A stretch of 64,000 nt of DNA from Tomocerus qinae (taxonomy: Eukaryota; Arthropoda; Collembola; Entomobryomorpha; Tomoceridae): the NCBI GenBank assembly GCA_020055645.1, contig CM034546.1, positions 130,097,875 through 130,161,874 of the forward strand, in the 5' to 3' direction. A program made the translations under genes and the position numbers. Each line of letters begins with the position of its first letter. The first letter of the stretch is position 1. Positions 4,301-42,263 of the stretch are shown here, one piece after another. Below the pieces are notes generated by a model, which was given only the letters and a program-made list of their open reading frames with translations, was not told the origin of the DNA and made no database searches.

Positions 4301-6127
4301 AAGGAAAAGATCTATAAGATTATCAGGATCTAGATTGTACTTTGCCTTTGATGCATTTTCTGAGATGAAGTTCTACAGCCAATACAATTTAATTATTAAT
4401 ATTTGATTTATGCAAATATCGTCCATGAAGGAAGGAATAAGCCTATATCCATTTTTCGTTTGGTGCAGGAAACAGCCTAACTCAACTAACAAGCGTATGG
4501 ATATAGGCTTTTTCCCATACCAAACAAAAAATGTATATTGGCTTTTTCCGTTCTTAAGGGGCGATATGTTATTGGTTTTTACAAAAAATAATAAGTAAAT
4601 ACTTTAACGATTGAAAAACCAAACAATAATGCAATAGAGTACGTATAACCTTTACAAATGAAAGCCTTTTTGAGGAACTAAGCAAAGTTGGCCGGCAGTG
4701 AATAATGAATTAAAACAAAATAAATAATCGCTAACCTCAATTAACTTTTGCATATTGCTGTATAACTTGCAATGATGACTGTAGCCAAATAAATCACGAA
4801 GAATCCATATATTTTTTGACAATTGTACTGCTGTAACATTGCTGATAGAAAGGTTTGTAATATCTGTTGATAATTTAAGTAGAGTAATAAATTCAGGATC
4901 ATCACAGGAAAATTTCCTTCCAAGAGTGGAAGTTGCAATGATATTGATAACTGCCGCCGAAAATAATCCAATGGCTTGTATTTTGTTATTTGATTGGGTT
5001 TTCATTTGTTCAACATGATCCAGTAATTCAAATAACTGATCTGTTAGCATTGAGGTCATGATTTCTTTCTTTCTGAGTCCCAGCTGACCTAATTTCTTTA
5101 CCACAAAATGCTTCAAAATTCGGCCTTCCTCCCCATTGTTCATTATGATTCCTTAAACATTAAAAACTTTTAGATTTAATCTACTTGAAGATTTTCAATT
5201 TAAAAATGTTTTTCCTTTCTTTCACAATCATTTTGAGATTACTTTTAAGTATGTTGAGATTTATCTAATGTTATTAAAAGTGTACCAAAAAACGTTTCTG
5301 ACTGCGATTGTTAATGAAAAACAACTGAGAATTTTTTTAAAGGTCATTGATTAAATTGAAAATGTTTACCCTTCGGTTTTCCTCCACAATACATTTCCAC
5401 AATGTTGTCTGAACTCCTGTCATGACATGCATCACTTCGATTCGCTTCTTGAATTGTTTTATAGTTGGCATTAAAGAAAACTTTAATAAAATTTAAAATT
5501 TAGTTATTCATAATAGTATACAGTTTTGTATTCATTTTTATTTGGGATGGATTTTCTGCGATCGCCTCGAAAATTAAAAAATACTTTCCAATGAAAAAAT
5601 CAGGCAATATTTTGTCAGAAATAAAACATTGTGGTGCTATTTTTTGCGACTTCATTTTCATTATTGTTTTAATTTGAAAACTAACCTTTGGTTCCAAATA
5701 GATTAATCACAACCGGATCCTTTGAGTAAATTGAATCAGAAGAAAGATATTTCTTATAAATCTTTATGTATGGAGATACTTCTTGGCCAGAAACAATTTC
5801 ACGCTTGGCAAACATCAAAATGTAGAGAATATGAAGTAATTCAGCGAGTCCCAAAGTCTTTATTTGTTTTAATCCTAAAGGATTAAGTATTTCAATTTTT
5901 CAGCATTCATATTATTTACAAACCTATTTCTGTGCCAAAAATAACTTTAAAATTGCATTTATTAGATTTATAACTTGATTCAGTTAATAATTTTTCTATT
6001 ATAATTAAACTTTCATATAATTTTCACCTTTACTCGAATTCCGTAATTTTGACGTTGTGACCCATAGAAATAGAAATAAAGCAAGTGAAAGTGCAAATTG
6101 AATGAAGTATTTGCCGTTGATATCCAT
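1397..6127 (-). CDS. Cytochrome P450 (CYP2-clan type), 8 exons
   Basis: Haem monooxygenase, by family an ER-anchored enzyme oxidising xenobiotics or hormones with NADPH-P450 reductase. Exons: 6127-6028, 5874-5686, 5447-5370, 5151-4736, 4372-4065, 3205-3091, 1913-1766, 1578-1397. All phases close, giving 511 aa, a normal P450 length. Residues 1-30 form a hydrophobic membrane anchor. The I-helix motif AGMDTTS begins near 316. The ExxR motif is EVHR at 374-377. The PERF-like segment is FYPENF in exon 7. The haem loop FSSGTRACPGE is split across the exon 7/8 junction, with ligand Cys456. Two oddities: no proline-rich PPGP hinge follows the anchor, and the C-helix Trp and Arg that usually contact the haem propionates read Gly and Lys (NGEEGRILKHF). 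The introns carry several transposon copies. The family assignment is secure, the subfamily is not. Confidence 0.9.
2027..2782. mobile_element. hAT-type non-autonomous element with 8-bp TSD
   Basis: The 756-bp element lies in the last-but-one intron of the P450 gene. It starts CAGGGTTGTGGG and ends CGATACCTTG. It is flanked by identical 8-bp copies of CTGGCCAA at 2019-2026 and 2783-2790, as expected for hAT transposition. Both ends are rich in GGGTTTTTT and its complement, so the termini are inverted. No transposase frame is present. Confidence 0.8.
3339..3498. mobile_element. hAT MITE, CAGGCACGTATCC family
   Basis: A 160-bp element with terminal inverted repeats CAAGCACGTATC and GATACGTGCCTG, and a C/G-rich subterminal zone. 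The 8-bp duplication ATGATCAT at 3331-3338 and 3499-3506 is exact. It lies in the P450 intron between 3205 and 4065. Related copies begin at 3668, 10649, 16589 and 20229. Confidence 0.85.
3668..3930. mobile_element. Partial hAT-family copy with nested inverted repeat
   Basis: The terminal motif CAGGCACGTATCC begins at 3668. Inside lies an inverted repeat at 3721-3885. Its arms start with GGAACGATTTAGCCTCAATG and end with the complement, and carry internal copies of an ATGCACTTTTCG unit. The right border of the hAT copy was not found. Confidence 0.5.
4425..4580. repeat. Inverted repeat related to the 3721-3885 repeat
   Basis: The stretch contains two inverted copies of a unit with ATATCCATTTTTCGTTTGG and its complement, followed by a GGGGCGATAT tail. 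The 3721-3885 repeat has the same order of motifs (an ACGAAAAGTGCAT unit, then GGACGATAT). It lies in the P450 intron between 4372 and 4736. Confidence 0.5.
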
Positions 6128-10200: not shown

Positions 10201-13200
10201 ATGATAAAAGTCATGAATTTATATTCAACATTTTCAATTTTACTGATCGTTACTGCTGCATTTGGAAAAACGGAACAGGAAAAATGCTCACCGGAAGATC
10301 AAGGAATTGTACGTCAAATAAAATTTAAGACGAAAGTTTTAAATATAATTTCTTTTTCAAACCAAAATTTTTTATAGGATTTGGCCAACAGAAATACTGA
10401 ATCCGTGAAAGTTTTAGTGTACAAGGTGGAGACAAAAATTCGGCTTCGCTACAGTGAGACTACGGTGACAACCATTCTTCAAAATACACATTTGTCGAAA
10501 ACGGCATTTTACCCTTGGAAAGTTATTATCCCAAAACTAGCATTCCTCTCTGCTTTTCATTTCTTTTACGTGTAAAGGCATTTTCATTTTCTAGATTAGT
10601 TTCGAGTCGGTATTTAATAATTAGTATAAAAAATATCTGCATCGTTTACAGGCACGTATCCAGAAGTTTGGTCAAGGGGGGCTTATTTTGTGAAATTTTA
10701 GGTTTACTAATTTATTTAGTTAATTTTTTTAGCCATACCCCCTTTGCTCCCTATTGGTTACGTACTTGATCATTTACATCCTTCTTTTGTTTGAATTTTC
10801 CAAGTCTATTTTTGTACGTCAATTATATTAAAGTCTTGATCATTATGCTCCAGTAATATTATAAAATAAGTATTCAAAATTTTGAAGCATTTATTTGTTT
10901 GCTTTAAACTTTAATTGTGGCGACCGTTCCTTTGGTTGGGATAACACTTTGTTTCAGGTCACTTGAGTTTGATGCGATACAGGGTACCATTTCAGTCAAG
11001 AATCAAAACGGAACCCGCGGAGTTTCAATGTGGTAAACCTTATGAATTTTAATTAGTGATAATAATGATTAGTGTAAACTACATGTTTGTGTCAGTGTCT
11101 AGAGTGCTATAGGATTGTGTATATTGGCATTAAAAAGATTGCTTTTGAACGTACTTAAAAATGTCGAGATATCGGAGCAGGTCGAAGAACAACACAATTC
11201 GCTCTACATACTAATTTAATAATTATAGTGTCTAAAGTAGTCCCCATTTGCGTTTAAATTACTTTAGTGGATCCAAAATGGATTTAGGTCAAAGCCTCCG
11301 CAAACCAATTTTATTGAACTAGCCATGGTATTTCTTAAATTTTTGTTTTTGCCCATTTAAGGCTATTTTAATTTTAGCCACTACCATTATAACTAGTAGT
11401 TACTCAAACACTATAAGACTGTCATACGAAAATATGATTTTATAGGAAACTTTAGCAAATACAAATTTTAAATATAGCAATTAATGTTACTTTCTTGATT
11501 TTTTCTTAAAGGGTAAGAAATGCAAACCTTTTTTCTGTGGATCTTCAGATAAGACCTTTGTCAGAAGTGCAAGCATCTATCTCGTATGGAGAAGTACTTG
11601 AAAGAAATTTAGGATATTATCAGCAAAATGTTTACATTCTTCCGGAAGTCGTAAGTGCAGCCTTAATATAGAAAAACGTGTTACGGATATAGAGCTATAC
11701 ATTAATGATTAATGAGTTATTAACATCAGGATTGATCACAACAATTAGGTTAAAACAATATTTTTAAAAATATTTCTACTCGCCTATATGGATTTCCATT
11801 GTAAGGCATTAGGCCAGGCTATATACCATTATCCGATGATCATGACCATGACCATGCAAGAAAACTTGCCAACATTTATCATTCAAGTTTAGTTTGTAAA
11901 TTGCATTACTTACAAAGTTTCCTTTTCAAACCCTTGTATGATTTATTAGTATAGTTAATTATTATATCTCAATGAAAATCTCTGAAAATTTTCTCAAGAG
12001 TCTGAAAAGCAGAACTTACCTACAGCAACTATTTATTATTTATATACTTACCTGTTACCATTTCTATATGAACCTGGAATTGTTTTAAAACTTGTGTATC
12101 AAGATGTAAAACCTGGTTCACTGAAACTAATTTTGGTTGCAGTAATGCAGTGCTTTGTTTGCACAGATACATGTATTAGTGTTTTAATTAGGTAAATTAG
12201 GTTAGGTCGACTTCAAACGATTACAAACTTAAAATCTCCTTAACAGATTTTCGCAAATGTTTTCGAATAAATTAATTTTTTAGGTACAGTCTGCGAAATC
12301 TTTAATTATCACCACCGAGATCCAAGAATCTGATGAAATCAAATTTGTTCGTATTCCTTTTAGTAAGTGATGATAAAATGCTTTCAATGTTCATAATACT
12401 ATTATTACCTATGGTAGTAATCCAAAATTAAATGAAGGTTCTTGTTAACAGACATTCAAGACGCAGCAATTGTTCACAAAACAGCCAACCACACAAAAGT
12501 GGTGTGGAATCCAGATGTGTACAAAGTTGTCAATCCCAGGTGCTCAGTGTCGCAATATTCTGTACAGTACGATGTGCGGAGAGGAGGAGGAGGAGGCGGC
12601 AGCGGAAATGGAAACAATGGAAATTCGGGATCGGACTACGATGATGATGGGGGCGACGGAAATGGGGGAAATGGATCGAAAAACCAATCTGGAAATAAAA
12701 ATGGTGGTGGAGGTGCTGGAGGGACATCAGGGAATACGGGAGGAGGAAGTGGAGGTTCGGGTGGAGGAGGAGGAAGTGGGGGTTCAGGGGGAGCAGGAGG
12801 AAGCGGAGGTTCGGGTGGGGGAGGAGGAGGCAAAGGAAGCGGCAATGGAGATGGATCTGGTAAGGGTGGAGGTTCCGGCGGGAGAAATGGAACGAGCAGT
12901 GGCACTGGCAATGGAAATGATCGAAATCGGAATGGTACAAAAGTTGGGGAGACTGTGAACAGTGGAGATATAGTGGTAATAACACCATTAACACCAAATA
13001 TTTTACTCTTTAATTCATTATCATTCCCATTGCCCCGCCAAAAAATTACAAAAGGCCAAATAAAAATAAGTTTTTGATATTACTTGTTGGGTATGGTCAT
13101 TAACAAGCAGTGAGTGATCAGAATAAATTTCTAGGACTAATATTATAATACTCTTAGTATTGTTTTCTTGCTTTTCATTTTTATTTTGTAGGTTATTTCC

Positions 13201-15832
13201 AACTATTTATTCCATTTCCTGGTTCCTGTGGATTTGAAATCCTTGAGAAAACATTTAATTTTCATCCAAGATATTTCTGGATCGATGAATGGTCGAAAGA
13301 TAGATCAAATGAAAGCTGCCATGACAAAAACTCTAGGCGATTTAAGACCTGACGACTATTTTAATATCATAACGTTCAACGGTGCCGTTAAGGTTGAAAA
13401 ATTCAAACAAGTTTTACATAATATAGAAAATGCAAATTAATGTAGCTAATTTTTAAATTGTTTCAGCATTGGAAGACTGACAGTAGTACAATAGCAGCAG
13501 ACTCTAAAAACATTACTAGAGCGAAAGATTTTGTGAAAACATTGGAAGCGGGAGGCCGTACGGCGATCAAAGGATCTCTTGAAGAAGCCTTCAAATTAAT
13601 AAATGACATTGATGATTCGCAAACTTTACCTGACAATGTGAAATCAACTTTGGTATTCATGACAGATGGTTTACCGACAGATGCAAATACTAGCTATATT
13701 TTAGCGAATACCCAGAGGCTGAACAAAAATCTGTCGATTTCAATTCATGCGCTGGGTTTTGGGAACGAAGCTGATATGAACTTTTTGAAAGCCCTCGCGC
13801 TACAAAACTTTGGACTCTCGCGGCAAATTTTTGAAGGAGCCGATGCCGAAGACCAGCTGAAAACGTTTTACAACGAGATATCCACACCAGTACTAACTGA
13901 TGTGACTATTACATACAATTCTCCAGATTTCACAATCACTGGCTTGTCGATAACCAATTTTACAACTATTTTTGGAGGTAAAGAAATAAAGGTCACTGGG
14001 AAAATAGTTCCAAAAGTGCCGGGAAGAGGGCCATTCAGTCTTACTGTTACAATCAAAGGAAATAGTCGGCGGGGACCGGTCCTTATCAAAAAAGTTGTGT
14101 CACTCCTCCTTTCTCCGGAATTTGCTAACAGTTTTAGCAATAAAGAGAATACTGTCGAAAATACTACTGGAGTAGGTGGAGCTAACCAAAAAAGGAAACA
14201 GATCAAACCTGGTCAGGTGGGAAACAGTGGCGGAAGAAATAGCACCAGTAGTGGCAATAGAGGAAGTGGTAGTAATAACCGAAACTCTAGCGGAGGAAAT
14301 GGAAGCAATAACCGAAACTCCAGTGGAGGAACTTCTGGCGGCTCTCAACTTGGAGCTCCAAACAGGCGTAACAAATTTCAGTATTTACCAAGTCGGGGCA
14401 GTGGGGCTGCTTATGGCGAAGAAGACTATGTCAACAAGATCTGGACACAAATAACAATGCAACAGTTACTTGACTCTTATTTGGCTAGTGGAAATTCATC
14501 TATCCTGGATGAGATCAGAAAAATGGCTTTACAGGTAAACGCTTCTCGTTTCTAATTTCGATAAAAAATTTATACTTGTTACGAAAGGAAAAATTTCCTT
14601 GAAAATGCAATCTTGGCATATATGGAAAATCTGTCACCAGACATGGCATTAATTTCTTATTTCAAGGAATTTTTCTTGAAAAATGAAATATTTGAAATTA
14701 ATGAAATTAATGAAATTTTTGAAATAAATGAAATAAATACAATGCGCATGTGTACACGCATGCGCAATTCATTTATTTCGCGCGAAATTTATTGAAATAA
14801 ATGCCATGTACCCCATTTATTTCAAATATTTTATTTTTCAAGAAAAGTGAAATATTTTGCGAAATATTTCAAAAATTTCTCCTATTTCCGTAAAATATTT
14901 CAAGTGCCATGTTTGTCTGTCTCTGACTCTAACTGTGTGACAATGGCATCTGAATCTACATCTGTCTTAGTACCCAATTATAACTGAAGAGCAATTGACT
15001 ACGGAAAAATCAATGCCAATGTCCCTTTTGAATTTTATTTAACTGGTAAGGTAGAAAACGATGGATACTTTTGAAAATCAGCGATTTTTAACTCGCGTAT
15101 TTTAGTGGAGATTTGGCAGATTTTTCATACCCATAAGATTCAAATAATACAATGTAAATAAGAGCAATTTTAATCATAGAATGGAATAGTTACGCCGTAT
15201 ACTTCAATGATGACTCGTTTTTCGCCTTGCACGCCTAAAGTTTTACTAGATCCTTTGCCTATTGAAGCGATTGACGGAACTAATTGCAGTTTTGGAAATA
15301 TTGTTCAACCGATAGAATCCATTCGGTGGTTCAATCCAAAATTGTCATCTGTCAAGATTGACGGAGTTGTGTACAACATTTCACAGTCTCGTTATGAAAT
15401 TGTAATAAATATATTCATTTATTAGTCACATATAATATTTCTTGTTACTAAATAAATGATTTTACTTTTCATAGGATAATGATTCAGTGCCTGGAGAAAG
15501 TTGCATTGTGAAAACTAGAACGACTCATGGAAAAGGAAGTTGTAAACATTTAATAGACTGTCCTCAAACGGATTTCAAAGACAGTTTGGATGTTTACAAA
15601 ACCAGTTACTTTTGCAGTATAAAATTTAAAAGGTTCTGGTTTATTTAAAACTGTGAAGTATTAAATTAAAATGGCGACAAAAGTTAACCAATTCAGATCA
15701 TCTGAATTAGTTAACTTTTGTTGCCGTTTATATCTGAATCAGATGCTCCAATGACTTCATTAATGGATAATTTAATCATGTAGATCAAAATCCTCTTCTT
15801 TTGCCGGAGTTTGTTGTCTTAGTTCGGATTAA
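10201..15832 (+). CDS. Secreted ITIH-like protein (VIT-VWA) with C-terminal CLIP domain
   Basis: Exons: 10201-10308, 10378-10571, 10958-11032, 11512-11650, 12284-12362, 12452-12975, 13192-13410, 13467-14534, 15180-15401, 15475-15632, 15784-15832. All phases close, giving 944 aa. A signal peptide (about 1-22) is followed by a VIT domain (about 37-245), including FSVDLQIRP and SYGEVLERN. A Gly-rich insert spans about 243-365. The VWA domain starts near 375, with MIDAS residues DISGS (Asp400), a later Thr (GGRTAI) and Asp (MTDG). A second Ser/Asn/Gly-rich stretch lies near 690-740, then ITIH-type VNKIWTQITMQQLL and VTPYTSMM. The end is a CLIP-like domain with Cys 886, 899, 905, 923, 939, 940. 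By family, ITIH heavy chains bind extracellular matrix, while CLIP domains mediate interactions in protease cascades. The combined role is unknown. The exon 7 donor (GTTTTA) is weak. Confidence 0.85.
10649..10768. mobile_element. hAT MITE, CAGGCACGTATCC family
   Basis: A 120-bp element in intron 2 of the ITIH-like gene. It starts CAGGCACGTATCCAG and ends GGTTACGTACTTG. The flanks ATCGTTTA (10641-10648) and ATCATTTA (10769-10776) differ at one base, consistent with an aged 8-bp duplication. Confidence 0.75.
12576..12940 (+). repeat. Low-complexity Gly/Ser-coding tract
   Basis: A purine-rich GGA/GGT/AGT run inside exon 6 of the ITIH-like gene, encoding stretches of GGGGGSGG-like residues. The frame stays open through more than 350 bp, and family motifs resume on both sides (YDVRR before, SGDIV after), so it is an in-frame insertion rather than intron sequence. 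Confidence 0.8.
14670..14845. repeat. Imperfect inverted repeat in ITIH-like intron
   Basis: The arms are CTTGAAAAATGAAATATTTG and CAAATATTTTATTTTTCAAG, with GAAATTAAT/GAAATAAAT repeats. At the centre is the near-palindrome TGCGCATGTGTACACGCATG. It lies between exons 8 and 9. Confidence 0.6.
15672..15727. repeat. Hairpin in the CLIP-domain intron
   Basis: Short inverted repeat, about 26 bp per arm (GGCGACAAAAGTTAACC with its complement GTTAACTTTTGTTGCC). It lies in the 151-bp intron that splits the CLIP domain between its fourth and fifth cysteines. Confidence 0.7.
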
Positions 15833-17045: not shown

Positions 17046-18181
17046 TTTGTTGGCGACTGACTGTAAAATGGGAAGGAAGTTGAATATCGTCAAAAACATA
17101 CTTTACTTTTTAGATGACAATATGAAGAACATTTTTGTCTCCTTATATTTTTCAATTAAGTTATTAGTTTAAAAGCCTTTGCTACTTGAAATTGAAAAAT
17201 ATGTTATAATTTCAATGTAAATGGCCAAATTTTTAAATTTTCCCGCATACTGGGGTACTTAATCCATCTTAATCTCATTGTTCCTCTCCCGCCTGAATTC
17301 TGCTGACTGTTGATGGAAGAAACTTATCAAACACTGTTGGATTTCTCGTATTCTCTCTTCATATTGTTCGCTGATTGTGCTGATGTACTTATCAAACACG
17401 CACTGTTGGATTTCTCTTTACTCACGCTTCATTGCCCGCCCGCTGATTATTGTGCTGATGTCTGATAGCCTATCCAAGTACCCAAAATTCCACTTGGCTT
17501 TTCAGTTGCTAAATTACCTCTTCGAATTTCATTTGATTTTGTATCTGCAACGTGTAGTAGGTAAGTATAGTACTTTTACAGTTGACAGTTAAACGTTTCG
17601 TGTTAAGGGTTTAAGTTATTGCTAGAGGTTTATTTCATTATAATTTGAACCTGTGACTGGTGACCTTCTGTGGGCAGAAATAGTAGCAATCTGCTAGTCA
17701 CTAGTAAGGGCTTCACCTATCAGAAAAGGGAAAATTTTAGTAACTTAACTCACTTACCTGTCTCCTGTACCGTCAACGTCAACCATACCGGATCTTGAGA
17801 TCTCTGTGTTCAAGTCTTCAATGTTCAATAAATAGTCCAATCAGGATTCAATCGAAAAAGTAATACGAAGAATCAAAGTCAAACAAAGTCAAAGGGACAT
17901 ATAATATCAAATATGTACCCTTTCTTACTGTTGACTGTGACTCTGCCTCCTTGGTTTCAGCGCTTGGTCGTTTTCGTGTTGATCCCATTTTACTTGTGCT
18001 GCATGATTAGGTTATTGTGATATTCGACTGACAACACTCAATTGATTATATTAATAACGTTGTTCTATTATTTTTGATTTTTTGGAAGGCACCGTACTTA
18101 ACGAAGGTAATCAACGATCATCATTTGAAGCCTATTTTTCTTAAGTGACCCTGGCTGACACTGTTTGAGGGAATAAAGAAA

Positions 18182-19303
18182 ATGACTGCATATCGCAATG
18201 ATTCACAAGTGTATGTCGGAGGTCTGAGCCCGGTGACAACTGTAGAAACGTTCCATAAGTATTTCTCCATATTCGGTCCTGTATTTCAAGCAAAGATTAT
18301 TAAAAATCCAGAGACAAATCAAAGTCGTGGATATGGCTTTATTACTTTCAAAGAGGTGGGTATTGTGCCCCGTGTGTTGGCAATTGGTAAGCACATTTTG
18401 GAAGGAAGACGGCTCGTTGTAAACCCAGTCAAACCCCGTATTTTAAACAAAGTCAGGAAGATATTTGTGGGGGGTATCAGTCAAAAAACGTCAGAGGAAG
18501 ACCTCAGAGCTTATATGTCACAGTTCGGAATGATTGAAGACGCCCGGATTTTAATGGATACCGCAACCAAACGTCATCGCGGTTTTGGATTTGTTACGTT
18601 TGATTCCAATGAATCGGTGGACTACGTTTGTGCTATTCGCTACCATACAATCAAGGGAAAAATGGTCGAGTGTAAGATAAGTGTACCGAGGGACCCCAAG
18701 TTCATTGTTTTGACCAACAGAAATCTTCCCCCAGCAGCTGATTTTACTTTTCCACAGCAGTCATTTCCATCATTACAAAATGAGTTAGCTACGACAATGA
18801 GGGATATCACAATGTCAACGGCGGTCACAACTAGCTATTCTCAACGGTTAATGAGCTCTAACTCAAACTACCAGTACATTGGACAGCCCTTGAGCTACAG
18901 ATATACGCCTTATCCATATCCATTGCCAACTTCAGTAAGTCTCCACATTTATTGTTTCATTTTCATTTTGATCATGTATTTAAACTACACTGTATTTAAA
19001 GGCATGACTATTAATGACATTGTCTTTAATAGTCCTGCCGGATTCTGATTGATTCCAGATGATTTTTATTATTTTAGGTACTTTGTATTTCATAATATTT
19101 GCCTTATTATTTTCATGTCTACATCTAAAAGAGAATTTAAACTTTTTCTATTTCAGAGTGCAACCGGTTTAGATCCTTACATGGGACTGGACACAGACGC
19201 TTACTGGGCACCGACTTATCCTCTTCCTTCGATTGATTTCGCTAGTTTCCAAAATATGGATTGGTCAGCATTCTTCAACGCCATTTCTAATATGACATAT
19301 TGA
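18182..19303 (+). CDS. Two-RRM RNA-binding protein, Musashi/DAZAP1 class
   Basis: Sequence-specific RNA-binding protein, presumably acting in mRNA translation or processing. Exons: 18182-18934 and 19157-19303, joined at TCA|gtaagt and tttcag|AGT in phase 0, giving 299 aa. RRM1 (about 9-87) has RNP2 VYVGGL and RNP1 RGYGFITF. RRM2 (about 94-172) has RNP2 IFVGGI and RNP1 RGFGFVTF, plus the Musashi-like KRHRGFGF and KGKMVECK. The tail is rich in Tyr, Pro, Ser and Gln. Both RRMs lie in one uninterrupted exon, unlike the exon-rich genes nearby. This could reflect an old retrocopy that later gained a 3' intron. RRM1 is more like DAZAP1/Hrb27C, RRM2 more like Musashi, so orthology is unresolved. Confidence 0.85.
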
Positions 19304-36386: not shown

Positions 36387-37217
<831 letters not shown>

Positions 37218-40200
37218 TTTTGATTTTCTACTTCCTTCTTTTCTGATACTAAACAGTCGAACTCGATTCAAACCTTGGCTTTCTAATGCAATACAAAACT
37301 TCAGCCTACAATTATACAGACTCTTATGTAATACGGATAAGCTGAAAATATCGTAGCAGCTTAGATGACAACTTTCCCAACTTAGAATAAGACTTTTTAA
37401 AACATGTTCAGTGCTGTGCTGTTCTGTATGTTAAGTAAAATAAATAATAATGAATAGGTAGTGTGAAAAAATATCTAATTTTGGATTGACCAATTTGTTA
37501 TGATGGATAAGTAACATTTGTTATTGCGCCCAAAAAACGGCAATGTGGTATGTAAGCTACTACACTCCGCTCTGCTTATGTTACTCCACCCGAGAATAAA
37601 TAAGCCATGATGACAAAATGGATATAAAGAAGTAGCTTTTATGTCATACGAGGTTTGCATGCATGCCAAGAAGATCTTATGGAGTTTATAAAATATATAA
37701 AAATAATAATTTAAAGTTAATCTGTATTTTAAAAAAATTATAGCTTTTTTGTTTCAATGGTTTTGACCTTTTGGTTCAGCTATTAACGTTTAGACTTGCT
37801 TATTATTATTCTTTTTCAGAAAGATGTCCCTTAAGCAAAATTATAGATGTGCCAGCATTAGAATTTCTACTACACCCAAATTCCAATCAAAAATGTCAAA
37901 AACTATTAGTCAGAATGTATTGTAATGATAGGACAGAAAAGCTAAATATTCAAGTCATTTCATAAAGCTAATTTACCAATTAATAACAAATATATCTACA
38001 TCCCAGAAGATCCCAGTCTTCAGGAACGGAATTAAATCGGAACTGTAGGTGGGTGGGTATAAGGTAGAGCAGATCATAAGCTATAGACTATAAAGTTTGG
38101 CTCACGAACGTAATTGAATTACAACCGTAGTGGAACATCAACATGAGTATGAGAAATATAAACTTGGAGGTCAGACTCATCGTCATTGGTTGGACTGTGT
38201 TAATATAGAAGTTGTATACACATTACGCATTTACAGCAGAAAGTCCCGATTACTTTGGTGAGTAAGATTCTCCGTCGTAAGAAAAATGTTTTAGCTAGTG
38301 GAGAACTATATAGTCTGACTTATCAAGATTTCCTGTTTTCTATTCTTATTTCTTCGTAATCAGAGAATCAAGAGTCTGAGTCAATTTTTTTGAAAATCAT
38401 CATAGTTACTAGCTAATTATAAGGATGTTGATTTAAAATTCCACCCTTTCTTTTTAGAATAAATTGGCACAAAAAACATACTACATAAAATGGTATAGTA
38501 CATGGTAGTATATGGTGACAATCTAAAAAGCATTTAAAAAACTCACTTTAATATTTCAGTGTACCGACTTATGCTAAATAGGAATTGAGGGAAAAAAAGC
38601 AAAAAGTACTCAGACTCCTAAGTCTGATTCTGATAGCTGTCTGCATATTCGTTGCCAACTTATAAAATCTTGATGACCTTATCCTTCTTTGAAATATTGT
38701 CAAGCACAGTTGTTTCATCAAGGTTCCCATGCATGCAAGCAATACTTATTCATACTGGCAACACATCAAAACATTTGTTTTTGATCATCTAAAAATTAAA
38801 GTAGGACGTCCAGGGGCAACTGGTAAATTACTTTGACTATCATATTGCCTCTTAGCTTTTTCGCAGCAAAAGAATCAACGCAAAAACCAATAGACCTACA
38901 AAAAAGTTTAAATAGGAGAAAAGATGCTCCATAACCCACACCCATTCGGCTTCGAACGAATATTTTAAACTTTTCTCTGTAGTTGCAATTAATTGCAAAT
39001 TCCGCACGAAAACGTTTATATCTTCAGGACCAATGTGTTTGAAATATTATAAAAGTAAGTCGGATTTACTCTGTGTTATATGTTCTTTATGATCTAAAAA
39101 ACTGTAACTCGGGTTCAGTGAATAAATTGCTTGTACTTGTCACCTTGTCAGTCAGTTTAATATGCTGAAGAGCTAGAATAATTATATAATCAAATTTTTT
39201 ATGATATTCTCCTGCTATTTGTTTTGACGGTGTCCATACAGGTCTAGATGACCCGATAGATTAAGCCAAAATCCCTTTGGTAGGGCCAAGGCCAAACTCT
39301 CAGTCAACTTAAAGTGGGGCGGCGAATGAGGCATGACTTTTCTCTTTTCTCTACTTAATTTATGTAAAATTGATTTTTCAAAAAACGATTTCAATCTTAC
39401 AAAATCTAGTTTGAAATGGAAAAGCATCTTGAAAACATGACAGTTTTGTTGAATTGAGTTTCCAATGTGCTGGAGGTCCAATCACGCATCCAGGAATTTG
39501 ACCTAGGGGGAGAGGGCACCAAAATATTTGTAAAATTAAGGAATATTCGCGCAAAGCCCGAACCCGTGAGCATCTCGATTTGCCCATGCCCGGTCGTAAG
39601 GGCATGTCGGGCACACGATTTTAGGCTTTTTCTACTATATATATTTACGGGTAGTTACGGGTGCCCACGGGCAGCATGAATTTTCCTGCCCGCCCGTGAC
39701 ATACCTTACTCGGTCACTACCCGCCCGTGCCCGTCCGTAACAATCGTTGGCCAGTATATGTGCCCGCCTATACCCGCCCGTGAGTATCCTTAATCCAGCC
39801 CGTACCCGACCGTGCATGCCGTGCAACTCTCTACATCAAACTCACTTTGTCACTCAACCTCAACACCAACAGTGAAAGAGAGTGAGACAGTGACAGTGAG
39901 ACAGATTGAATGAAGTTAACTTTACTTCGAAAGAAACTGTTTGTGTTTCAGTTCAGGTTCAGCAATACAGTACAGAGTACAGAGTACCGTGCAATTACTG
40001 CAATCTTAAAACTGCGAGAGAGCAAAGCCCGCGGTAGTTTTAAAAATTGAGGAAAAATGATTTTGATTTTCACGTTTCATTTAATTCGCTAGTTTTCATT
40101 CAGTACTAAATACTAAATACAATAACAAATAACCAATAATAATTACCAACATTTTAAACAGGTGTTTTAAACGGTTAAGAGAAGTGGAAATGGGCTGATT

Positions 40201-41142: not shown

Positions 41143-41393
41143 TCCGTTGGTTTAACATTTATCTGGATTTCTGCAATGATGGTCTAAACTAAAGTCTAAA
41201 AATACGCCTCTGCTTTTAATACTTTTAGATGCAGGGCGGTGACCTAATATGATTGGGGGATTTACATCAAGACAAAATAAATCAAATACAGAGGAAAAGT
41301 CAATTATTAACATTAGGTCGCGTGTGTGGAATTATCCTTTTGTCTCCTTCCATAAACAGTAGCAAAAAACAATTGGCCAGCTTTATTCGTTTG

Positions 41394-42263
41394 ATGTCCA
41401 AATCAAAATCTTGTTTATATTTTAGTAGTAAAGCTATTGAATATACTAGCAAAATGGCATACAGATGGTACGTCCCTGTGGGTCAATGGCAGCCAACCGA
41501 AGATCAACTTCTTCGGATATCGTCAGTAATTCAGCCAGAAGAAAAAGCAAGAATTGCCCGTTTTCATTACATGAAGGACTCAAAGTCTTCCGTCGTAGGT
41601 CGTCTTCTTATTAGGAAACTACTGTGTTTGGAGACTAAATCTGAAAACCATCAAATAAAACTAATACGGGACAGTCGCAATAAGCCAATTCTTAAAGAAC
41701 CTTCATCCAACATCAATTTCAACGTTAGCCATCAGGGAAATTTTGTTGTTATCGCATCAGATCCATCGGTGAAACAATTAGGGATCGATGTGATGAATAT
41801 TGAAAGACCACGAAGCTGCGAAAGTATTGACGAGTATTTCCGGCTGATGAAAAGTGTATTTACGGACAACGAGTGGAATCAAATTAAAGGAACCAGTTTA
41901 AATTCACCCATTGCTAATTTTACAAGATTTTGGTGCTTAAAAGAATCATATGTTAAAGCTATTGGTTTAGGCATTGTAATTGATCTAAGATCTGTAGATT
42001 TTTATACCCAAAGTGATTTAAAATCAGGAGATGTGATAACCGACACCAAAGTTAAAGTTGATGGCATTTTACAAAAGGTTTGGACATTTGAAGAGCAATT
42101 TTTAGACGCTTCTCATATTGTTGCAGTAGCAAAAGACGGAAGTAGCCCAGCTGTTGATTTTCAAGAAAAGGATTTGAACTATTTGATTGAAGATATGAGC
42201 CAATTATGCGACTCTGATGAAAATTGGAGCAAATCATTTTTAGATAAGCCTATTAGCCCTTGA
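41394..42263 (+). CDS. AASDHPPT: 4'-phosphopantetheinyl transferase (AASDHPPT type)
   Basis: Transfers the phosphopantetheine arm of CoA to acyl-carrier domains (fatty-acid synthase, aminoadipate-semialdehyde dehydrogenase, 10-formyl-THF dehydrogenase), in cytosol. One uninterrupted frame of 289 aa from the ATG at 41394. A second in-frame ATG at 41454 (MAYRWYV) aligns best with the family start, giving 269 aa. Signature segments are INFNVSHQGNFVVIA, then LGIDVMNIERP with the metal-binding Asp, then FTRFWCLKESYVKAIGLG with the conserved Trp, Lys-Glu and Lys. The 20-residue N-terminal extension, if used, is Ser/Lys-rich and could be a weak mitochondrial signal. The gene lacks introns, so a retroposed origin is possible, but the frame is clean and the active-site residues are kept. 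Confidence 0.92.
   Translation: MSKSKSCLYFSSKAIEYTSKMAYRWYVPVGQWQPTEDQLLRISSVIQPEEKARIARFHYMKDSKSSVVGRLLIRKLLCLETKSENHQIKLIRDSRNKPILKEPSSNINFNVSHQGNFVVIASDPSVKQLGIDVMNIERPRSCESIDEYFRLMKSVFTDNEWNQIKGTSLNSPIANFTRFWCLKESYVKAIGLGIVIDLRSVDFYTQSDLKSGDVITDTKVKVDGILQKVWTFEEQFLDASHIVAVAKDGSSPAVDFQEKDLNYLIEDMSQLCDSDENWSKSFLDKPISP

Follow-up and report, generated by a model that had tools for sequence, protein, structure and literature searches.

A gene of the ITIH type with a C-terminal CLIP-like module in Tomocerus qinae

The locus raises the question of whether a protein of the ITIH type can carry, within one and the same gene, a CLIP domain at its C-terminus, as had been proposed in an earlier note on the 64,000-nucleotide stretch analysed here (the window, C1:130097875-130161874; the genome searched amounts to 334 Mb in 115 contigs). 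The gene model comprises 11 exons (10201-15832; Table 1) with GT-AG borders throughout and no stop codon at the joins, giving a single frame of 938 codons; it bears out the in-phase joining described in that note, with an exact match at the junctions 14534/15180, 15401/15475 and 15632/15784. The product, previously given as 944 aa, has 938 aa in the model, which places the six-residue difference upstream of exon 10, and the cysteines listed before as 886, 899, 905, 923, 939 and 940 were each numbered 6 too high (Table 1). The VTPYTSMM motif of exon 9, which starts at residue 800, and the six-cysteine pattern over exons 10 and 11 ending in VCC are indeed read in the same open, spliced frame. 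Elsewhere in the window, matches at E <= 0.01 were obtained in 4 of the 10 frames scanned.

Table 1. Features of the window gene, of its paralogues and of other parts of the window (positions refer to the window unless a contig is named)
Feature	Position	Strand	Remark
Exon 1: start codon and hydrophobic N-terminus reading as signal peptide (MIKVMNLYSTFSILLIVTAAFG...)	10201..10308	+	signal peptide by eye
Exon 2: VIT, first half	10378..10571	+	Pfam VIT profile positions 4-52, sub-threshold
Exon 3: VIT continues; usual central VIT loop looks shortened	10958..11032	+	by eye against paralogue frames
Exon 4: VIT end and start of ITIH hybrid-domain region	11512..11650	+	alignment to 6fpy
Exon 5: ITIH core, VIT-to-VWA interval	12284..12362	+	alignment to 6fpy
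Exon 6: ITIH core strand into VWA; holds Gly-rich insert	12452..12975	+	
Gly-rich insert in exon 6	12577-12954	+	in-frame
Exon 7: VWA start, MIDAS motif DISGS (Asp400, Ser402, Ser404)	13192..13392	+	
Exon 8, VWA part: remaining VWA, TDG Asp507, post-VWA beta region	13467..14534	+	beta region by ITIH homology
Exon 8, linker part: low-complexity Asn/Ser/Gly, KRK (682), RR (740)	13467..14534	+	
Exon 8, 3' part: helical tail begins	13467..14534	+	helical tail by ITIH homology
Intron 8: 48-nt inverted repeat (81%), 80-nt spacer	14671-14846		possibly a small non-autonomous element
Exon 9: VTPYTSMM, Cys813/Cys832, pre-CLIP segment IRWF...VVYNIS	15180..15401	+	
Exon 10: CLIP-like module, C1-C4 = Cys880, 893, 899, 917	15475..15632	+	
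Intron 10: 30-nt inverted repeat, 90% complementary, 1-nt spacer	15669-15729		likely a hairpin between two exons of the CLIP-like module
Exon 11: C5C6 = Cys933-934 (AGVCC), then stop codon	15784..15832	+	paralogue last exons
Cytochrome P450 match	4652-5152	-	
RRM match, two stretches	18149-19048	+	
Dual-specificity phosphatase match	36681-37430	-	sub-threshold
Phosphopantetheinyl transferase AASDHPPT match	41253-42263	+	
ITIH-like loci, tandem pair	C1:80.6905 and 80.6965 Mb		51 and 50% identity to exon 8 query
ITIH-like locus	C4:2.005 Mb		47% identity to exon 8 query
ITIH-like locus	C4:2.0156 Mb		45% identity to exon 8 query
ITIH-like locus	C4:4.899 Mb		40% identity to exon 8 query
ITIH-like locus	C1:89.175 Mb		39% identity to exon 8 query
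Module, CLIP-model score 12.4 bits	C4:2.015 Mb		shuffles as good: cysteine-fixed 1/250, full 0/250
Module, CLIP-model score 5.0 bits	C4:2.005 Mb		shuffles as good: cysteine-fixed 10/250, full 7/250
Module, CLIP-model score 2.4 bits	window		shuffles as good: cysteine-fixed 38/250, full 18/250
Module, CLIP-model score -0.7 bits	C4:4.899 Mb		shuffles as good: cysteine-fixed 154/250, full 143/250

The ITIH core

In phmmer searches with a query of 538 aa that omitted the Gly-rich insert and the C-terminus, the core aligned with human ITIH1 (6fpy; E 1.6e-56, query residues 28-499) and with ITIH4 (9c4f; E 1.1e-54, query residues 46-515), that is, from the VIT region through the VWA, so that the order characteristic of the family, VIT followed by VWA in a secreted protein, is present, the signal peptide being read by eye. 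The ITIH-like VIT/VWA assignment proposed before therefore stands with respect to this alignment and to the Pfam VWA profile, which matches the product over its cut-off (E 3.4e-15), whereas the Pfam VIT profile stays below its cut-off of 26.5 bits, with matches of 15-17 bits (E 0.0068 and 0.025); the interval between the VIT halves looks short by eye in the window gene and its closest paralogues, and such a shortened stretch would explain the weak VIT score. The MIDAS motif is intact, since DISGS (400-404) and the Asp of TDG (507) align with HC1, for which Asp298, Ser300, Ser302 and Asp403 are reported as the MIDAS residues (PMC7170535). Neither the Pfam ITIH C-terminal domain nor a trypsin domain was matched in the product at E <= 1; the Pfam and NCBIfam searches also returned bacterial families bearing VWA domains, all of them below their cut-offs. 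A VTPxTSM-type motif after the VWA region, such as the one opening exon 9, is a trait of ITIH proteins. The Gly-rich insert, located just before the VWA, encodes 126 aa (51% Gly) and has a GC content of 56%, the ten introns ranging from 16 to 31%; no such insert was seen in the frames that were read for the two nearest paralogues, in which GD or GE comes within a few residues after YDV.

The terminal exons and the paralogues

A search of the genome with 219 aa of exon 8, in which only the best candidates were scored, revealed at least six other ITIH-like loci, seven including the window. Five further places with VIT similarity (C4:11.95, C1:68.08, C2:13.08, C5:23.81 and C1:120.58 Mb) were read by eye as the intracellular VIT/VWA5A type and left out of the seven. 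The spliced exons 9-11 gave nine matches at E <= 10 among the best candidates scored: three in the window, two to exon 9 of the C1:80.69 Mb pair, three to a CLIP-like exon 10 and one unrelated (E 1.5). The three exon-10 matches, at C4:2009981 (E 1.7e-5), C4:2017018 (0.011) and C4:4898298 (0.25), each lie 0.9-4.4 kb downstream of an ITIH VWA match that has the same orientation; among the best candidates scored in the 334-Mb genome, no other place matched exons 10-11 below E 1. In all three C4 paralogues the last exon, reached after a phase-2 intron of 82-90 bp, reads F-x-G-[ST]-CC followed by a stop; the last intron of the window gene is likewise in phase 2, with a length of 151 bp.

The module is thus found at the C-terminus of four of the seven ITIH-like loci, the window gene and the three on contig C4. 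The four copies share six invariant cysteines among 13 invariant columns, the spacings C2-x5-C3 and C3-x17-C4 and a stop codon 3-6 residues past the CC; in each of them, C4 and C5 are separated by an intron in phase 2. An HMM built from the three paralogues without the window, and run against 3434 sequences, namely the six-frame translations of the window together with the spliced module, recovered exon 10 with E 3.8e-11 and the spliced module with E 1.4e-12, the next match being at 0.028; exon 11 alone is weak, both with the profile (E 1.6) and against itself in the genome search (0.33). The two C4 genes near 2 Mb (C4:2000001-2020000) are tandem and diverged from each other, each with its CLIP-like tail, and the C1 pair (C1:80684001-80700000) consists of two closely similar tandem genes in which no such tail was found.

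Around the three tail-less loci (regions L016, L017, L021, L036 and L040) no CLIP-like exon was detected, although the search could have missed one that lies far away or has diverged strongly. In the C1:80.69 Mb pair, exon 9 is 51 and 54% identical to that of the window over its first 41 residues and reaches a stop soon after GTNCSS. In a tree of the VWA exons of the seven loci, midpoint-rooted and with one long branch, the window gene groups with this tail-less pair (98/98); the simple reading is that the tail was lost in the pair and at C1:89.175 Mb, although the tree does not distinguish loss from gain. Downstream of the tail-less C1:89.175 Mb gene a reverse-transcriptase-like frame was noticed by eye (L021:1-1605, minus strand), which may be linked to the loss of the terminal exons.

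Kinship of the six-cysteine tail

The tail was compared with twelve CLIP domains, nine from places in this genome matched by PF12032 and three from the PDB; six of the 15 PF12032 places, in which the exon with C5C6 had not been located, were left out for that reason. Six cysteines with adjacent C5C6 and C2-x5-C3 are present in all four modules and in all twelve CLIP domains, and the full framework arose by shuffling each module in only 13, 13, 24 and 19 of 50,000 cases. The successive spacings are 9-12, 5, 17, 12-15 and 0 in the modules and 5 or 9, 5, 14-29, 8-11 and 0 in the CLIP domains, of which the C1-C2 spacing (9-12 against 9 or 5) and the longer C4-C5 interval count against a CLIP assignment. 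A forced global profile alignment places all six cysteines in register, with shuffles scoring as high in 2 of 150 cases (ends fixed) or 5 of 150 (all cysteines fixed). Profile-profile comparison with the three PDB domains gave E 4.7e-4 (probability 33%, 21 columns), and the local comparison with all twelve was weak (E 0.0093, probability 4.4%, 13 columns only), being equalled in 7 of 200 runs with shuffled columns and in 6 of 200 with the cysteines kept in place. Scores with the CLIP model vary widely among the modules (Table 1), the best of them, at C4:2.015 Mb, standing at 12.2 bits after a one-residue correction.

The Pfam CLIP profile matches none of the four modules at E <= 10, and for the window none of the full product, exons 9-11 and exons 10-11 at E <= 1; conversely, PF12032 matches the genome at 15 places, and no ITIH locus is among them. 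In several of these places the frames run on, as read by eye, into protease-like sequence, and six of the 15 lie within about 0.4 Mb (C2:66166821-66568328), perhaps a CLIP-protease array. CLIP domains normally precede a protease domain, so that the lack of one in the product counts against CLIP kinship. Searches of the PDB with the window module gave no match and, with the four-module profile, only an NPL4 homologue at a chance-like E of 0.79; an LRV_FeS match on one paralogue module (E 0.006, 16.9 bits, cut-off 27) was sub-threshold and was taken as a coincidence of cysteine spacing. Of the complete CLIP domain claimed in the earlier note, the cysteine framework is therefore retained, whereas Pfam recognition fails and the profile tests are only suggestive, and in view of these mixed results the tail is termed CLIP-like. 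Judged from the sequences, true kinship with CLIP domains appears rather probable, and the tail is probably disulphide-knotted.

Two other explanations bear on the gene as read here. In one, the fusion would be an artefact of the gene model, with exons 9-11 being part of a different gene, a possibility raised in the earlier note; the long intron 8 (645 bp) with its inverted repeat and the 15 complete sense codons of exon 11, not significant by themselves, would agree with it. However, exon 9 opens with the ITIH-type motif, order, strand and last-intron phase are repeated in three paralogues, and exon 10 is recovered by a profile that had not seen the window, all of which makes a separate gene very improbable. 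In the other, which we regard as rather doubtful, the tail is a six-cysteine knot of non-CLIP origin, defensin-like or specific to the family, that reached a similar spacing independently and, without any link to CLIP proteases, caps the protein, dimerises it or is released as a small peptide. This would account for the failure of Pfam on all four copies, for the weak profile scores, for the C4-C5 interval and for an intron phase that, as read by eye, differs from those in three CLIP domains of the genome, and the terminal CC is also found in beta-defensins; nevertheless, the spacings of beta-defensins are shorter throughout, C2-x5-C3 with the terminal CC is common to all CLIP domains compared, the short C3-C4 loop has a counterpart in one of the CLIP domains of the genome (L053, spacing 14), and the CLIP model gives one module a score of 12 bits. 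In summary, the window gene is, with high probability, a single gene of the ITIH type that ends in a CLIP-like module.

Possible role and relation to known systems

An association with hyaluronan, which the earlier note suggested as one option beside the matrix, is not supported, since the DPHF motif is absent from the whole 938-aa product and arthropods, to our knowledge, are without hyaluronan. The DPHF(II)-type motif is the cleavage site for covalent transfer to chondroitin sulphate or hyaluronan, and ITIH4 is not transferred by this route, so that its absence bars the hyaluronan function and not membership of the family; coupling of the window protein to hyaluronan is, on its sequence, unlikely.

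Several precedents serve as models for a mechanism. ITIH4 is reported to inhibit MASP-1 and MASP-2 through non-covalent complexes formed after its cleavage, its standing as a MASP inhibitor in vivo being uncertain (PMC10855846); the MIDAS of HC1 is reported to serve both dimerisation and the binding of C3, the cleavage of which is inhibited by HC1 (PMC7170535); partner binding in insect cascades may reside in clip domains (PMC10732536); and inhibition of proteinases is ascribed to a secreted VIT/ITIH-like protein from Argulus (PMC7029603). On the model of ITIH4, HC1 and clip domains, an ITIH protein with a CLIP tail might act, once docked, as a brake or scaffold. The best explanation overall, put forward tentatively, is a secreted CLIP-tailed ITIH acting as a docked regulator of a CLIP cascade, and we are slightly more reserved about the particular mechanism, drawn by analogy with ITIH4, of bait and docking. 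Such a protein would consist of the VIT, the hybrid/VWA region with its intact MIDAS motif, the helical tail and the CLIP-like end. Its ITIH core would act as a haemolymph regulator whose flexible linker is cut by an extracellular trypsin-like protease, the stretch with KRK and RR between VWA and tail region being our guess for the bait; the cut core might then hold the protease non-covalently, away from large substrates, as reported for ITIH4 on MASPs. The CLIP-like tail would serve as the docking module to the CLIP-protease cascade (melanisation, Toll or clotting) or its cofactors, MIDAS and VWA could engage a further partner or another copy of the protein, and the whole would restrain or scaffold the cascade from its docked position and would not cross-link hyaluronan. 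Against the docked-regulator view, the tail was not found, within the reach of the search, in three of the seven ITIH loci, the two nearest relatives of the window gene among them.

Alternatively, the protein may be mainly a fat-body, egg or matrix protein, like the ITIH4 of hemipterans with its part in vitellogenesis and egg production, and the tail a structural end-piece. The precedent is Nilaparvata lugens ITIH4, reported as a protein of 907 aa with signal peptide, VIT and vWFA, expressed most highly in the fat body, the knock-down of which delays vitellogenesis and reduces egg number and hatching (PMC8951764); ITIH is also listed among the abundant serum proteins of the silkworm (PMC8367846), which speaks for the same role. 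Nevertheless, a reproductive role leaves the conserved six-cysteine tail of four loci unexplained and is compatible with a second, immune role, and as the main explanation we consider it unlikely.

In the literature covered by the search, the scope of which did not extend to arthropod protein databases, no VIT/VWA/CLIP (ITIH-CLIP) fusion was found, and the term C-terminal clip domain, where encountered there, refers to Spaetzle (PMC8023496). The architecture may be widespread in arthropods and simply unannotated, and since none of the four copies of the module is recognised by Pfam, it is worth looking again at how other ITIH4-like proteins of arthropods end. That arthropods hold an unrecognised family of CLIP-tailed ITIH proteins, docking on the melanisation/Toll cascade with an ITIH4-like trap as the counterpart of ITIH4-MASP, is an improbable extension. 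A CLIP-like tail that several paralogues have retained would give ITIH proteins a physical connection with the CLIP-protease cascade, and binding of the tail to CLIP proteases, SPHs or prophenoloxidase offers a testable entry.

Compared with known systems, the window protein shares with ITIH1 (6FPY) and ITIH4 (9C4F) the VIT-hybrid-VWA core, the MIDAS residues and the VTPxTSM-type motif after the VWA region, and differs from them in the apparently shortened VIT, the insert before the VWA, the lack of DPHF and the CLIP-like six-cysteine end. It resembles PF12032 CLIP domains (2IKD, 2IKE, 2XXL) in the six cysteines ending in CC, in C2-x5-C3 and in reading as a secreted protein, whereas its tail is C-terminal on a non-protease, lies below Pfam detection, has a longer C4-C5 interval and carries an intron in a phase unlike that of the three CLIP domains read. 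An insect parallel, Nilaparvata lugens ITIH4 (MH069652), likewise combines VIT and vWFA with a signal peptide in about 900 aa; in contrast to the window protein, VIT and vWFA are the only domains named for it in the source (PMC8951764).
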